From assembly GCA_018262855.1 (NCBI GenBank), contig JADFDO010000002.1:62001-126000 (forward strand): 64,000 nt of DNA. The letters are read 5' to 3'. Shown here in pieces: positions 53,200 to 59,380 of the stretch; the stretch's first letter is position 1, and the number at the start of each line of letters is the position of its first letter. The notes under the pieces are model-generated. The model was not told the DNA's origin. It did not search any database and was given only the letters and a program-made list of their open reading frames with translations. The position numbers and the translations under genes were made by a program. The stretch comes from Methanolinea sp. GTDB lineage: Archaea; Halobacteriota; Methanomicrobia; Methanomicrobiales; Methanospirillaceae.

Positions 53200-53811
53200 T
53201 CACTTCTTGAGCGAGTCGTCGAGGATAGCCTTCACCCTGGGCTTGAGATGCTCGCCTATGAAGTCGGCAAGGCTTTTATCCGAGAAATCATACCATGACT
53301 TCCCGCTGTCATAACTGATGATGAAACCTCCCGAGATCTCTTCGGAAGGTGTAAGGACAATCCCCTTCTTGACCGCATCCGAGAGCTTGTGAAGATAATG
53401 GCTCTCAAAGAGTTCAAGATCCTCCTTTCTTCCCAATATTTCGATCTTTCCAGCCTCGCCCTTCTCTGAACGAAGTATCATCTCAGACAGGAGCCGGGAT
53501 ATCACTTCGGGAGTGAGGGCTTTTTGGGTATCTGACATGATAATTCCCCGGAGCATGGTGTTCACTTCGTTTCTGAGCAGGAGGAGCAGATCCCTGCCAG
53601 CCTGGGTAAGCAACGCCCTCTGGCTCTCTTCCTCGCGGCGGATCCTCTCCTGGGCCGCAGCAAGAATCCTGTCTGCTTCACGTTGTGCAGTCGAGACGAT
53701 CTCTTCAGCTCTCCGGTGTGCAGCAGTCTCAATCTGACCGGCTTTCTCCTCTGCAGCCTGTATCCCCTCCTGGTTGATCTTGTCAATCAGATCCCTGATC
53801 TCTTCCGCCAA
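53200..53811 (-). CDS. Second ATPase: stator subunit E
   Basis: The 203-residue protein has an Ala/Glu-rich N-terminal coiled coil (about 1-90: EEKAGQIETAAHRRAEEIVSTAQ) and a globular C-terminal end with EISGGFIISYDSGKSWYDFSDKSL. That C-terminal motif is typical of E subunits in bacterial-type V-ATPases. It is first in the operon E-DUF2764-A-B-D-I-K; the operon has no F, H/G or classical C gene. The promoter should lie in 53812-53950. Confidence 0.88.
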   Translation of the reverse strand: MAEEIRDLIDKINQEGIQAAEEKAGQIETAAHRRAEEIVSTAQREADRILAAAQERIRREEESQRALLTQAGRDLLLLLRNEVNTMLRGIIMSDTQKALTPEVISRLLSEMILRSEKGEAGKIEILGRKEDLELFESHYLHKLSDAVKKGIVLTPSEEISGGFIISYDSGKSWYDFSDKSLADFIGEHLKPRVKAILDDSLKK

Positions 53812-54041
53812 TGCGAGCCCTCCTCACCTCTCCCTGCTCATAGCATAAGGTGCTCTATTCTTATCAACCCGCACTCTTGCACTCGGCAAAGCCGGGTATT
53901 TGACGTGGTGATAAGGATTCAGGGAAAGGTGATATTAACCTTTGTGAAAAGCCCCAAACTCCCGCATTGGTGTTCTGCTACGATGCGCGACGACAGGGTA
54001 ATAGTGGGTCATATAACTGGGAGCCTTTGTGGAAATGGAAA

Positions 54042-54067
54042 TTTATTTATAGTTCTGAAGCTATAAG
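54042..54067 (+). promoter_or_regulatory. TATA elements before the three-unit RNA
   Basis: TTTATTTATAG (54042-54052) and CTATAAGG (54061-54068) are both good TATA boxes; they predict plus-strand transcription from about 54076 or 54090, just before the repeated RNA units and with no protein gene downstream. Confidence 0.55.
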
Positions 54068-54102
54068 GGGTATGCCTCAGTGAGGAACCGACTGGGGATA
54101 CG

Positions 54103-54201
54103 TGCCAGGGTGACATGAATCCCTGTATCCAAACGGCTCAACGATACAGGGATGATCGAGACATCTCACCATGGGGCCGAACAAATGTTCAGGAAACATC
54201 C
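54103..54201 (+). repeat. Structured RNA unit 1
   Basis: Starts TGCCAGGGTGACA, has a 9-bp main stem with a 13-base loop containing AAACGGCTCAA, then ATGATCGAGACATC, ATGGGGCCG, and ATGTTCAGGAAACAT (54185-54199). Confidence 0.6.
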
Positions 54202-54303
54202 TGCCACGATGGCATGAATCCATGGCCCAGAACGGCGAAAAAGGCCATGGGTGATCGAGACATCCCATCGATGGGGCCGGTGAGGTATGTTCAAGGAACA
54301 TGA
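54202..54303 (+). repeat. Structured RNA unit 2
   Basis: Starts with the hairpin TGCCA-CGA-TGGCA, has an 8-bp main stem with loop AGAACGGCGAAAAA, then GTGATCGAGACATC, CCCATCGATGGGG and a perfect ATGTTC-AAG-GAACAT hairpin (54287-54301). It is the most regular of the three. Confidence 0.6.
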
Positions 54304-54402
54304 TGCCGGGATACCAGCAACATGCATCTCAAAACGGCGAAAGAGATGCAGGTAACAAAGACGTGCTATCCTGGGGCCGAGCATGTGTGTCCGTCATGAT
54401 CC
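54304..54402 (+). repeat. Structured RNA unit 3
   Basis: Starts TGCCGGGATACCAGCA, has an 8-bp main stem with loop AAAACGGCGAAA, then GGTAACAAAGACGTGC and CTGGGGCCG. It is the most diverged unit and its last hairpin is weak (CATG/CATG). Confidence 0.5.
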
Positions 54403-54434
54403 TCACGGGGCACATTGTGAGAAAGCCTTTTTTT
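54402..54434 (+). terminator. Hairpin and T-tract after the three-unit RNA
   Basis: CTCAC (54402-54406) pairs with GTGAG (54417-54421), followed by AAAGCC and seven T (54428-54434). It closes the candidate RNA transcription unit. Confidence 0.5.
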
Positions 54435-54550
54435 CTCCCGCATATTTTCCCCAATTCACGGACACCATCCGGATTACTATATACAGCTGCTCCACTGCTG
54501 GAAATGGATTTTATAAAAGAGTGATACGTGGCATCAACAGGAGGCTTCAA

Positions 54551-54570
54551 CCCTGCCCAGCAGGGCAGGG
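54551..54570. other. Strong 8-bp hairpin downstream of a TATA box
   Basis: CCCTGCCC-AGCA-GGGCAGGG is a perfect stem. TTTTATAAAAG at about 54511-54521 lies about 25-35 bases upstream, so a short transcript may begin here. The rest of 54435-54936 shows no credible gene; the 81-codon frame at 54661 lacks family similarity. Confidence 0.35.
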
Positions 54571-54936
54571 TATCCACCATGGATTGGAACGTTCAGTCGG
54601 TGATTTAGTTGGACACTAATACACCTGCAATATCATTAAAAGCAATCATAATTAAATCTTTTGGAATCATCAGAGCCTTTGCAACTGCCTTTTTATGAAA
54701 AAAAGGCCGCAATATGCATGGGTAAGCAGTTGGGGACATGGTATGCCGAACCTGCGGCCGCGATGATCAGTGCACCTGGAGAGGAGCATGGAACTAAGAG
54801 AGCGGGGGGGAGCTATCAGGGAGCACCCATTGCTCATTCAGCGTCTCATTCAATCCCGGAAACCCTCTTTCCAGTACCTGATTGCAGCATTTTCGTCAGT
54901 TTATGAAGAATCCCCCGGCAAAACATAACCGGTTCA

Positions 54937-55566
54937 TCAGGGTCTTTTCAGTGAACGAAGTCCATCCCTGAATTCATCCATGTACTCCTGCATGGAGAGG
55001 GATCCTTCGGGGAAAGGGCAATCGGGATCCCTCATGCGGTCGATGGTGGGTTTTGTGGGAAGCAGAAGATCCAGTGAGATCCCGCTCCTCGAACATGCAC
55101 GGATCATCGCCTCCCTGAAGATTCCGATACAGTATGCGGTTCTCTTCCTGTACAGATTTTTCGTTTTTTTAAGGTATCCCTCAAGGCGATACGTCTCAAT
55201 CTCAAGAAAATCTTCGAGAACCACCGGATCGGTGCATTTCCCTATCATGTAGTGATAGTGAGCGTAGGGGTACATCAGTTCAAGCTCTGCAGGGACTGTG
55301 CCGCACGTCCCAAAGACGACAAGGTGATATTCCGTCTCTGTGAATACCTCGCCAATCATCCTCCGGAAGAGCCGGTGGCTCGGGCTGCTGCTGTAGGGTT
55401 TTCTGAGCGCACACGGGATGAAGATAGCCAGTTCCCGGGAAGGTATGGTGTACGAGTCAAGAATGAAACGGTATGCCTCCTCGAACACGGGATTGTAGAA
55501 GGGCGGATCAGAGTGTATGACTGCGGGATCCATCTCCCGTCTGCGTGATCCTGCAACGCGTGTCAT
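54937..55566 (-). CDS. DUF5591 protein related to archaeosine synthase
   Basis: The 209-residue protein contains IFIPCALRKPYSSSPSHRLFRRMI near residue 50, similar to the PC..KPYS.S.SH motif of the ArcS core (DUF5591), and VVFGTCGTVPAELELMYPYAHYHYMIG. ArcS converts preQ0 in tRNA towards archaeosine with lysine. This protein is far shorter than full ArcS (over 500 residues) and lacks the TGT-like and PUA parts, so it may be a split form or a relative with another role. ATG 55566 is used; ATG 55533 (MDPAVIHSDPPFY) is possible. Confidence 0.65.
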   Translation of the reverse strand: MTRVAGSRRREMDPAVIHSDPPFYNPVFEEAYRFILDSYTIPSRELAIFIPCALRKPYSSSPSHRLFRRMIGEVFTETEYHLVVFGTCGTVPAELELMYPYAHYHYMIGKCTDPVVLEDFLEIETYRLEGYLKKTKNLYRKRTAYCIGIFREAMIRACSRSGISLDLLLPTKPTIDRMRDPDCPFPEGSLSMQEYMDEFRDGLRSLKRP

Positions 55567-55670
55567 GATATTGTGGATTGAAATGAATCAGGCTGTGTCC
55601 CATGGGGTGAAGAGCAGGGGGACGGAAGTCTTATTCTTGCGACTGCGACTCACTCCACAGCCGATCCCTG

Positions 55671-56039
55671 CTACTGGTTTTTGATAAATCCTTTCTGGAT
55701 GAGATCGGACAGCCAGTTGTCCAGGAAGCTGGAGAGCTCGTTTTTGGCTTTCAGATCGACTTTTCCGGGTGCAGGATACACCACTCGCCGCTCTTCAAGG
55801 ACCTGGAATGTAAGGGGTTCTGCGGTCTTATTCTGGTGATCGACCCGGATCTCCATGTCCGGATCAGCATACATCACCCCATCTTCCATGGGATTCTGGG
55901 ACAGTGCAAAGATATCATCCGAGAGCCGGTCGATACAGAGCGGAACATGGGGTGGTTTCTCGATCACCACGTACTGGCGGACCTCAAACACGCCTATTTT
56001 TGCCATTTTCTCGTATATTGAATGGTATACATCCTGCAT
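55671..56039 (-). CDS. Conserved-looking hypothetical protein
   Basis: This 122-residue soluble protein starts MQDVYHSIYEKMAKIGVFEVRQYVVIEKPP; central beta-rich stretches (MYADPDMEIRVDHQNKTAEPLTFQVLEERRVVYPAPG) precede a helical end (LSSFLDNWLSDLIQKGF). I do not recognise the family. Composition and codon pattern are normal for the window. It stands alone on the minus strand, divergent from nothing nearby. Confidence 0.75.
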   Translation of the reverse strand: MQDVYHSIYEKMAKIGVFEVRQYVVIEKPPHVPLCIDRLSDDIFALSQNPMEDGVMYADPDMEIRVDHQNKTAEPLTFQVLEERRVVYPAPGKVDLKAKNELSSFLDNWLSDLIQKGFIKNQ

Positions 56040-56188
56040 GGTCTACCTATCCTCTCATCCAGTAATTGAGAGAAGTGGCTTGATAAAGATTGTCCAGTAT
56101 GTGATTCTCACACCGGGGTGATTGTATCCAAAATTGTTCAGGTTTATCCGCCAGGGTTGCCACAATCGGAGAGTCCCGGAATGCATCA

Positions 56189-56752
56189 TCAGAGCAGGGC
56201 CATGTGCTCAAGGAGGATCTTCAACCCGATACCGATGAGGATTGCTCCCCCCAGTATCTCGAAATTCTTGCCAAACCGCTCGCTCATAAAACCGCCAAGC
56301 ATGGCCCCGGAACATGCAAACAGGAAGGAGATGACTCCTGCCACGAGCGCGACCAGAAGGATATTGCCTGCGAGCAACCCCAGCGATAATCCCACCCCGA
56401 GTGAATCGATACTCGTCGCTGTGGCAAGGATCAGGATGCTGGAGAGTGAAAAGTAATCCCGTTTTTCGCGGTCAGGATCCGCCCGTATACCCTCGTAGAT
56501 CATCTTCGCACCGATAAGGGCAAGAATAATAAACGCGATCCAGTGGTCTATACCTGAAATCGCCCCGATGAGGGTTGATCCAGCCCCCCACCCGAGAAGC
56601 ATCATTCCTGCCTGGAAAACTCCAAAGGAGATGCCAAGAATCACGGCAAGGCGAATCTTTTGTGAGGGATTTGAGGTAGCCGCCGCCAGTGACACGGCGA
56701 GGCAGTCCATGGCAAGTGAAATGCCTATAAGGATGATGAGAAGAAGATCCAT
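56189..56752 (-). CDS. mntP: MntP-family manganese efflux pump
   Basis: The 187-residue protein has six helices in two homologous halves. The conserved Asp residues lie in GISLAMDCLAVSLAAA and ATATSIDSLGVGLSLG, the metal-path motifs of MntP. It exports Mn2+ in bacteria; archaeal members are assumed to do likewise. Length matches (about 185-190). The symbol is by family only. No Mn riboswitch is seen in the short upstream region. Confidence 0.85.
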   Translation of the reverse strand: MDLLLIILIGISLAMDCLAVSLAAATSNPSQKIRLAVILGISFGVFQAGMMLLGWGAGSTLIGAISGIDHWIAFIILALIGAKMIYEGIRADPDREKRDYFSLSSILILATATSIDSLGVGLSLGLLAGNILLVALVAGVISFLFACSGAMLGGFMSERFGKNFEILGGAILIGIGLKILLEHMALL

Positions 56753-56984
56753 TCGTCATTCATTATGGAGAGTGCACGCTATAAAAAAGGAGATGGCAAT
56801 GCCGGTATCCGCCATGAGGATTGTTCTGCACCATACGATACCCTGCTGGTGAAGGGATTGGGAGATACACAAATGCCCTTGCATTTTTTTCGAGATCCGT
56901 GCTTCATTCTCCGACATCGCAGGTTATTCAGGAGAACCAGTTGGATATATACCCATTATAAGCACAGCTTGGGCAATCCTGATC

Positions 56985-57215
56985 ATGAAAATGAGGGCAT
57001 TCTGCATATTCGCAGTACTGCTGGCACTTGTATTGATTATCAGCCCGGCGGTTGCTGCACCTGATAGTACCCAACTCCAGGGAATCAAGTCTCCCAGAAT
57101 GAAAATTTTTACCCCGCACGCGGATGAAAAAACACCCAACACCGCACTTCTCACTGCAGTGGTGGCCAGGGCCTATGGATCTCACTACAATGGGTACATC
57201 CGGTGCTTCCTCTGA
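56985..57215 (+). CDS. Small exported protein, unknown
   Basis: The 76-residue protein has a clear signal peptide (MRAFCIFAVLLALVLIISPAVAA, cut near residue 25) and a short mature part of about 51 residues (TPHADEKTPNTALLTAVVARAYGSHYNGYIRCFL). GGATATATACCC and CATTATAAGC just upstream are TATA-like. ATG 56985 or 56991 may start it. There is no family I know; the signal peptide is the main evidence for a real gene. Confidence 0.55.
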   Translation: MKMRAFCIFAVLLALVLIISPAVAAPDSTQLQGIKSPRMKIFTPHADEKTPNTALLTAVVARAYGSHYNGYIRCFL

Positions 57216-57412
57216 AGAATACCTGATATTATTTTTCAATCTGGTGAGCTGTAATTCCCGGAATCACACCCGGGCAAGACCGTAGATACTCTGAGTTCGC
57301 GTGGGATTCGTGGTCGCGGTCAGCATGGTATACCAATGCTTCCCCGAACTGATTTTTTAGGTTCAAAAGACGGTTGTTTCGGGCTTCTTTTTCCTCTCGC
57401 ACCATTGCACAA

Positions 57413-57444
57413 CTGTTATAGCATGGGATAACTCCATGTTACAG
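57413..57444. promoter_or_regulatory. Imperfect inverted repeat before the acyl-CoA ligase gene
   Basis: CTGTTATAGCATGG and CCATGTTACAG form an interrupted inverted repeat around a TATA-like TGTTATAG, 20 bases before the start at 57464. It could be an operator. The region 57216-57412 has no gene. Confidence 0.3.
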
Positions 57445-57463
57445 AGTAGCATGGTACGGAGGG

Positions 57464-59380
57464 GTGGGCATTCAGCATACCGGGTATGATGAGGTGTATA
57501 TCCGGTCGCTCCGGGAACCGGAGATCTTTTGGGGAGACGCGGCAGCACTTGTTTCATGGATACGGCGGTATGATCGGGTCCTCGATACCTCCCGCTTGCC
57601 CTTCACCCGGTGGTTCCCCGGGGGGATACTCAACACCTGTTACAACGCTCTTGACAGGCATGTTGAGCAGGGGAACGGGGACCGCGTTGCCCTGATTTAT
57701 GACAGCCCTGTGACTGAAACGATCAGGAAATATCGCTACTCAGAGCTCCTTCACCTTGTTGCCAGGTGTGCCGGGGGGTTGCAGAGACTCGGGGTAGAGA
57801 AAGGAGACAGGGTTGTCATCTATATGCCCATGATCCCGGAGGCGGTCATCTCCATGCTCGCCTGTGCAAGGATCGGGGCTGTCCATTCTGTGGTGTTCGG
57901 TGGCTTTGCACCCAGGGAGCTCGCTTCACGGATTCGGGACGCCAGGCCAAAAGCCGTGCTCATCGCATCGTGCGGGATAGAAGTGAACCGTGTCATCCCG
58001 TACAAGCCGCTCATCGATGAGGCGATCTCGATTGCCGGGATCCAGGTTGACCACTGCGTGATCGTCCAGCGACCCCAGCACCGGGCAGAACTTACAAAGA
58101 AGAGGGACAGGGAGTGGGGGGGTTTCATGGATACCGCACCGGCTGCGGAATGTGTCCCGCTGCAGGCAACGGATCCCCTGTATATTCTCTATACCTCGGG
58201 GACTACCGGGATCCCGAAAGGGGTTGTGCGGGATTGCGGGGGGCACCTGGTCGCACTTCTCTGGAGCATGAAGAATATCTATGGCATGACACCCGGTGAG
58301 ACCTTCTGGGCGGCATCTGATGTCGGGTGGGTTGTCGGGCACTCCTACATCACCTATGCTCCCCTCGCGTTCGGATGCACGAGTATCCTCTATGAGGGAA
58401 AGTCTGTCGGGACCCCCGATCCCGGGGCGTTCTGGAGGGTCGCTTCGGAGCACCGTGTGAATGTGCTCTTCTGTGCACCCACGGCATTGAGGGCAATAAA
58501 ACGGGAGGATCCGGGCGGGACCTTCATGAAGAAGTATGACCTCTCCATGCTCCGGACCCTCTTCCTGGCCGGAGAACGGTGCGATCCCGATACCCTTGAT
58601 TGGGCAAAGTCGCGGCTCTCGATCCCGGTTATCGATCACTGGTGGCAGACAGAGACCGGATGGGCGATCGGTGCCAACCCGGTGGGGATCTCCATGTTCC
58701 CTGTCAAACCGGGTTCATGCACGAGAGCCATGCCCGGCTACGATATTCACGTGCTGGACGACAAAGGTGCGGAGGTCCCGCCGGGCGTAACAGGGAATAT
58801 CGTGATCCGCCTTCCGCTCCCTCCCGGATGTTTCACGACACTCTGGCAGAAGGACGAAGAGTGTGTCAGGACCTACTACTCTGCATATCCCGGGTACTAC
58901 ATCACCGGGGACGCCGGATATATCGACCGTGATCACTACCTCTGGATCATGGGGAGGACCGATGACATCATCAATACCGCAGGCCACCGGCTCTCCACGG
59001 GAGCCATGGAGGAGGTGCTGGCGTCCCACCCCGACGTAGCGGAGTGTGCGGTCACCGGAGTGGCCGACGAAGTGAAGGGAGAGATCCCGATAGGGTTCGT
59101 GGTCCTGAAGGCAGGCGTGCAGCGGGAGAACGGAGATCTCGTCCGTGAGCTCGTTCAGCTGGTGAGGGAACGGATCGGGCCTATCGCATCGTTCAAGGTG
59201 GTGGTGGTGGTGAGCCGGCTCCCCAAGACACGGTCCGGGAAGATCCTGCGGGGAGTGATGAAGAAGATCGCGGATGGTGATCGGTATTCAGTTCCTCCGA
59301 CGATCGAGGATCCCGCGGTGCTCACTGAAGTTGCAGAGAGCCTCCGGGGGATAGGGTATCCTAAGGCAGTAAACCATTGA
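57464..59380 (+). CDS. Acyl-CoA synthetase, PrpE/Acs type (AMP-forming)
   Basis: The 638-residue adenylating enzyme has the P-loop-like YTSGTTGIPKGV, DVGWVVGHSYITYAPL, WWQTETGW, TGDAGYIDRDHYLWIMGRTDDIINTAGHRLSTG and the catalytic Lys in RSGKILRG. The VVGHSYI..APL segment is closer to propionyl-CoA synthetase PrpE than to Acs. It activates a short fatty acid with ATP and CoA. The start GTG 57464 is close to GGAGG; it is followed after 123 bases by the hydantoinase-like gene. Confidence 0.9.
   Translation: MGIQHTGYDEVYIRSLREPEIFWGDAAALVSWIRRYDRVLDTSRLPFTRWFPGGILNTCYNALDRHVEQGNGDRVALIYDSPVTETIRKYRYSELLHLVARCAGGLQRLGVEKGDRVVIYMPMIPEAVISMLACARIGAVHSVVFGGFAPRELASRIRDARPKAVLIASCGIEVNRVIPYKPLIDEAISIAGIQVDHCVIVQRPQHRAELTKKRDREWGGFMDTAPAAECVPLQATDPLYILYTSGTTGIPKGVVRDCGGHLVALLWSMKNIYGMTPGETFWAASDVGWVVGHSYITYAPLAFGCTSILYEGKSVGTPDPGAFWRVASEHRVNVLFCAPTALRAIKREDPGGTFMKKYDLSMLRTLFLAGERCDPDTLDWAKSRLSIPVIDHWWQTETGWAIGANPVGISMFPVKPGSCTRAMPGYDIHVLDDKGAEVPPGVTGNIVIRLPLPPGCFTTLWQKDEECVRTYYSAYPGYYITGDAGYIDRDHYLWIMGRTDDIINTAGHRLSTGAMEEVLASHPDVAECAVTGVADEVKGEIPIGFVVLKAGVQRENGDLVRELVQLVRERIGPIASFKVVVVVSRLPKTRSGKILRGVMKKIADGDRYSVPPTIEDPAVLTEVAESLRGIGYPKAVNH

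Follow-up and report, generated by a model that had tools for sequence, protein, structure and literature searches.

A predicted free-standing RNA gene of Methanomicrobiales with one or three pseudoknotted modules and a possible multivalent binding role

The window analysed, a 64,000-nucleotide stretch of Methanolinea sp. DNA, almost certainly harbours a new conserved structured RNA gene, as judged from sequence comparisons in which the RNA recurred with paired ends, and with lengths of 330-341 nt, at 28 homologous loci. A scan of the window region with Rfam 15 (4227 models) gave no match at gathering or relaxed thresholds, even at E <= 10, and none was obtained when the RNA was scanned at six homologous loci drawn from five families, in keeping with the original prediction that it resembles no named family. 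Neither an earlier description of the RNA nor any described free-standing structured RNA of the hydrogenotrophic methanogens of this order was found in a literature search that covered mostly papers available without subscription. The fuller statement, namely that the RNA represents a free-standing, probably trans-acting new RNA class of Methanomicrobiales with a trivalent scaffold or titrating role, is an evenly balanced proposition; the newness claimed is that of an RNA class without known homologues, the function of which may still be of a known kind.

The component parts of the locus are listed in Table 1. An A-rich BRE/TATA element, represented in the window by AAATTTATTTATAG at about 54042-54055 in the promoter region, was located at -33 to -22 relative to UGCC and in the same register in 64 loci, which bears out the TATA box originally reported before the array. 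This fixed register predicts a transcription start at or just before the end helix P0, and on these grounds the RNA is taken to possess its own promoter. A run of at least four T residues was present 3' of the RNA in 49 of the 64 loci. A local hairpin had been proposed to precede the seven-T run of the window; the homologues give better support to pairing of 54073-54086 with 54400-54412. The locus has no conserved coding frame: no reading frame was open in all of the homologues, the lengths of which occupied all three classes modulo 3. When the unit model was applied to the window's genome, no copy beyond modules 1-3 was detected. RNase P RNA (RF00373) was considered as a candidate identity and rejected, the genome's copy being located elsewhere (contig C22, 31502-31847).

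Table 1. Features of the RNA locus in window coordinates; modules 1-3 all belong to the training set of the covariance model that gave their bit scores.
Feature	Position	Strand	Description	Basis
BRE/TATA region, A-rich	54040-54051	+		fixed register in 64 homologous loci
Whole RNA	54073-54412	+	about 340 nt, first to last base of end helix; predicted ends	28 homologues
End helix P0, 5' strand	54073-54086	+	UGCCUC, UGAGGA	compensatory changes in one-module relatives
Helix P0b, 5' strand	54096-54101	+	GGAUAC, partner 54387-54392	
Module 1	54103-54182	+	pseudoknot CGGC 54134-54137 x GCCG 54176-54179	covariance model 81.8 bits (training set)
Spacer 1	54185-54199	+	strands pairing with spacer 2, enclosing module 2	
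Module 2	54202-54282	+	pseudoknot CGGC 54233-54236 x GCCG 54276-54279	covariance model 69.4 bits (training set)
Spacer 2	54287-54301	+	partner strands of helices around module 2	
Module 3	54304-54382	+	pseudoknot CGGC 54335-54338 x GCCG 54376-54379	covariance model 72.6 bits (training set)
Helix P0b, 3' strand	54387-54392	+	GUGUCC	
End helix P0, 3' strand	54400-54412	+	UCCUCA, GGGGCA	
Seven-T run, likely terminator	54427-54433	+		sequence

The consensus of the ~80-nt module, drawn from 47 units, began with a 12-bp helix P1, followed by an internal loop in which one near-invariant A lies opposite GAnnAAGA, an 11-bp helix P2, a loop with AAACGGC, the returning strand P1' and finally GGGCCG. The three units with a shared AACGGC loop that were recognised from the window alone are indeed present, as are the GATCGAGACAT block and TGGGGCCG; the block, initially described as single-stranded, is in fact the 3' strand of the conserved asymmetric internal loop. 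Similarly, the stems do differ in sequence between units and yet pair, but they are longer than the 8-9 bp first assigned to them. In alignment A2 of these 47 units, prepared with plain MAFFT and without fitting to structure, standard pairs (pseudoknot included) accounted for 88.0% of cells compared with 65.9% in shuffles, double-change cells numbered 322 compared with 110, and changes on both sides were recorded in 23 of the 28 pairs; as a control, shifting one strand by 1-3 columns lowered pairing to 34-40%. The corresponding values for 101 units from several families, in an alignment which unlike A2 was fitted to structure, were 88.0 versus 59.1% paired cells and 744 versus 230 double-change cells. 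The covariation of the module is thus overwhelming, and the pattern initially claimed within one molecule was repeated in the 28 homologous family loci. RNAalifold recovered 18 nested pairs of the module unaided, and folding of the whole RNA as a single sequence gave z = -4.5; the minimum-energy fold of that single sequence mixes the units, and the alignment was trusted instead. While the sequence of the module stems varies freely, the conserved nucleotides belong to the two loops (internal and hairpin) and to the pseudoknot, and are common both to the modules of one molecule and to the different families.

The pseudoknot results from pairing of the loop CGGC with a GCCG located just 3' of P1. 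Of the 101 units, 81 had CGGC in the loop and GCCG in the 3' strand. The combination was CAGC/GCUG in three units (L022, L027, L078) belonging to two genera, and CGGU/ACCG in family f2 and many f4 RNAs; overall, 98.4% of the pseudoknot pairs were retained, with double changes in two of the four. In four f4 paralogues (L072-L074) three of the four pairs were kept (CGGU/UCCG). In L022, L027 and L078 both CAGC and GCUG are confined to module 3, so that the pairing occurs within a module and not between modules. The loop tops an 11-bp helix, and the geometry suggests that, for it to reach the foot of the 12-bp one, the module would bend sharply at the asymmetric internal loop.

With 28 full sequences, RNAalifold placed the three arms and the end helices. 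In P0, UGCCUC pairs with GGGGCA and then UGAGGA with UCCUCA, and in P0b GGAUAC pairs with GUGUCC. Swapping the partners of the end helix between trimers could not discriminate, because the trimer sequence is too conserved in this region. P0 was settled by the one-module relatives, in which the helix consists of 10 bp that were 99.5% paired in the 21 of 27 loci parsed and in which positions 6, 7 and 9 had changed in a compensatory manner. The spacers pair in the window as AUGUUC 54185-54190 with GAACAU 54296-54301 and as AACAU 54195-54199 with AUGUU 54287-54291. The AUGUUC/GAACAU helix was paired in all 28 loci and included two double changes (L012, L023); the second spacer helix varied in sequence, each spacer giving a mean of -8.8 kcal/mol with its own partner versus -6.0 with those of others, and none of 2000 reshuffles was as good in a test that is inflated by related sequences. 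An AUGUUC..GAACAU hairpin local to each spacer was also considered, but the cross-genus alignment favoured pairing of spacer 1 with spacer 2, which put an end to the idea that a unit and its spacer hairpin recur together exactly three times. Taken together, the end and spacer pairings predict a junction of four helices, namely P0b, module 1, the spacer helix bearing module 2, and module 3. The layout put forward from the window alone, free-standing with three structured units, is supported, but it missed the pseudoknots, the end helix, the spacer helices and the one-module form.

BLASTN searches of 108 genomes of the family located the RNA in each of the 12 remaining congeneric genomes and in four additional genera, giving the 28 loci, and the unit model extended the matches to five families of the order. 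A covariance-model search, suggested as a check in the original prediction, was conducted with an improved model (R2) and returned homologues in 71 of the 232 genomes of the order Methanomicrobiales, distributed over 14 of its 40 genera; the class of the window's organism comprises the same 232 genomes. Across a 393-genome sample of the phylum, all matches fell inside the order and none beyond it. About two thirds of the order's genomes gave no match to the RNA. Some of these possibly hold copies below the filters, since those used with many genomes lose weak matches, and absence from the remaining genera does not establish loss. Two of the three outcomes originally named as telling against the array were thereby examined, and neither a lack of homologues and covariation nor a match to an Rfam family was found. 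A viral origin was rejected, the conserved spacer pattern being absent from viral contigs. In a separate observation, contigs C159 and C267 of genome G105 gave five unit matches, attributable to a further copy of the RNA or, alternatively, to a mixed assembly (listed contamination, 4%).

Three modules were present in families f1 (the Methanolinea relatives), f5 and f6, the middle module being diverged in f5 and enlarged in f6. On closer description, the middle units of f5 and f6 (L062-L068) were much diverged, the enlargement being seen in L067 and L068 of f6, and in f5 the pseudoknot persists with five base pairs, loop and base being CCGGC/GCCGG. By way of comparison, the RNAs of f2 and f4 contain a single module inside the same kind of end helices (UGCCUGAGAG ... 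CUCUCGGGCA; GGUGCAU ... AUGCACC in f4), an arrangement which indicates that the module is an independent part. Methanoculleus-type genomes hold such one-module RNAs, closed by the same end helix and in some cases present as 2-3 copies, and two or three one-module genes were found in some f4 genomes (G153, G188, G189); most one-module genomes show one copy only. Copies within one genome were recorded in L072 (1860-1937, 2271-2348) and L073 (2129-2206, 2609-2685), with further examples in L074 (2071-2148) and L071 (2253-2329, 6087-6163). Some copies of one genome lay 400-500 nt apart, and the two modules of L071 were identical in sequence with different flanks.

The RNA is intergenic, with minus-strand A-type ATP synthase genes, so named from their sequence, to its left (the nearest left gene, 53200-53811, is without a Pfam match) and a minus-strand DUF5591 gene to its right. 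In most Methanolinea genomes the upstream neighbour is a same-strand sodium:solute symporter gene, and a symporter gene is also found upstream in several g17 genomes; a ferredoxin gene is the neighbour in several f4 genomes and a prismane-family CO dehydrogenase gene in f5. The symporter and ferredoxin genes might be thought to favour a role in cis for an adjacent gene (as riboswitch, leader or 3' untranslated region), but that explanation is improbable given that the neighbours differ between families, that a promoter in fixed register is predicted for the RNA itself, and that no same-strand gene occurs within 3 kb downstream in the window; nor, as would be expected of a riboswitch, was a same-strand gene consistently found downstream. 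As its neighbours differ between families, the RNA is not tied to one gene and most likely acts in trans.

Other features of this neighbourhood were also recorded. At 54937-59380 a conserved minus-strand pair of DUF5591 and DUF6908 genes is followed by an acetyl-CoA synthetase gene, a set that lies near the RNA in several genomes, with the symporter on the RNA's other side in many relatives. A second near-invariant element of about 130-150 nt, probably on the minus strand, was noted at 54530-54680, with the layout GGTGGCATCA..AGGAGG .. hairpin .. CGGTGACTTAGTTGGACACTAATACACCTG .. TTAAAYCTTTTGGA and a TATA-like TTTAATAAT upstream on the minus strand. It gave one match per genome in 13 of 13 genomes of the Methanolinea genus, was found near the RNA in four other genera, had no Rfam match, and looks like another undescribed small RNA.

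Archaeal H/ACA RNAs may contain several tandem units of stem, internal loop and stem, and the likeness of the present RNA to that arrangement raises the question of a three-unit guide RNA of this type. Guide pockets must vary, whereas the internal loop A / GAnnAAGA is conserved between modules and between species; the sequence following GCCG is variable (AAC, GGT, GAA, GGA, ACC) and shows no consistent ANA box, the hairpin loop is engaged in the pseudoknot, and no Rfam match was obtained. An H/ACA-type guide RNA is accordingly very improbable, the least credible of the explanations considered. A further comparison is with sponge RNAs of the CsrB/RsmY type, which present simple-loop hairpins with GGA for CsrA. 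The hairpins repeated in one RNA could, as here, bind several copies of one protein, but the AACGGC loop of the present RNA takes part in a pseudoknot, and its three loops do not share a GGA: in the window the loop of module 1 is AACGGCTCAA and that of module 2 AACGGCGAAA.

The nearest described architecture is the STAXI motif, which consists of tandem pseudoknots, usually three, near genes for DNA-binding proteins (PMC2864571, Weinberg et al. 2010). The likeness, three covarying pseudoknotted modules, is one of layout only: here each module has two stems, the RNA is closed by an end helix and has its own predicted promoter, no DNA-binding-protein gene context accompanies it, and STAXI, the model of which is taken to be included, gave no match in the Rfam scans. 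OLE, ROOL, GOLLD and raiA (PMC12286853) are likewise free-standing, intricate and conserved RNAs of mostly unknown function, but they are bacterial or phage RNAs whereas the present one is archaeal and modular, with no homology in the Rfam scans. A ribozyme or an RNA-only assembly, as proposed for OLE, ROOL and GOLLD, would suit an ornate, free-standing and conserved fold and has a precedent in the homo-oligomeric RNA complexes of bacteria (PMC12286853); given that the RNA is small (165-340 nt) and modular, and that there is no evidence of cleavage or multimer contacts, it is considered improbable, much as is a cis-acting element.

Because the conserved bases are located in the loops and pseudoknot and are common to the modules while the stems vary, recognition of a folded surface is favoured; antisense pairing is disfavoured because the same bases are mostly paired or buried. 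It is proposed that bending back at the internal loop would bring the CGGC of the hairpin loop to the GCCG at the module base, and that conserved nucleotides (GAnnAAGA, AAACGGC, GGGCCG) would form a compact surface on the bent module, with the variable helices serving only to hold that surface in place. Each surface could then accommodate a single copy of a common partner, for which a protein is most likely, and the three-module RNA would constitute a trivalent scaffold or titrating RNA. The repeated conserved modules are compatible with, rather than proof of, protein binding by the loops, and a multivalent-binding role is put forward tentatively, at slightly less than an even chance. All modules need not perform the same job, the middle one being enlarged or diverged in two families, and with a single copy in most one-module genomes valency is not obviously needed.

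Two other explanations are each regarded as unlikely. A base-pairing regulatory RNA would pair with mRNAs through unpaired conserved stretches (e.g. GAACAAA in spacer 1), with the modules providing only stability. Such RNAs exist in methanogens, sRNA162 of Methanosarcina mazei targeting both cis- and trans-encoded mRNAs (PMC3510493), and GAACAAATGTT of spacer 1 was near-invariant in the 28 loci; most of that stretch nevertheless pairs with spacer 2, it is not kept in other families or in one-module forms, and the bases common to all modules sit in the pseudoknot and internal loop. While sRNA162 and other methanogen sRNAs (PMC3510493) are likewise small RNA genes of methanogenic archaea, homologues of the present module were, in the 393-genome sample, confined to its own order. 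An aptamer array, considered equally unlikely, would have each module bind a small molecule, which the RNA would signal or buffer with no control over a gene next to it. The compact pseudoknotted fold and conserved asymmetric loop share a general layout with known aptamers, and tandem aptamers are established for glnA motif RNAs (PMC2864571), but there is neither an expression platform nor a consistent same-strand gene downstream.

Beyond guide RNAs, RNase P and SRP, few free-standing structured RNAs are known from archaea. The RNA might be a new RNP or regulatory platform, in which a pseudoknotted module binds a protein or metabolite and exists in both one-module and fused trivalent forms, valency having been changed by multiplication of modules inside one closing helix; we put the probability of this at somewhat short of even. 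Since the RNA has a pseudoknotted structure well supported by covariation, occurs naturally with either one or three modules and is carried by Methanoculleus-type genomes, its function is directly approachable, and the natural variants permit the role of valency to be tested.
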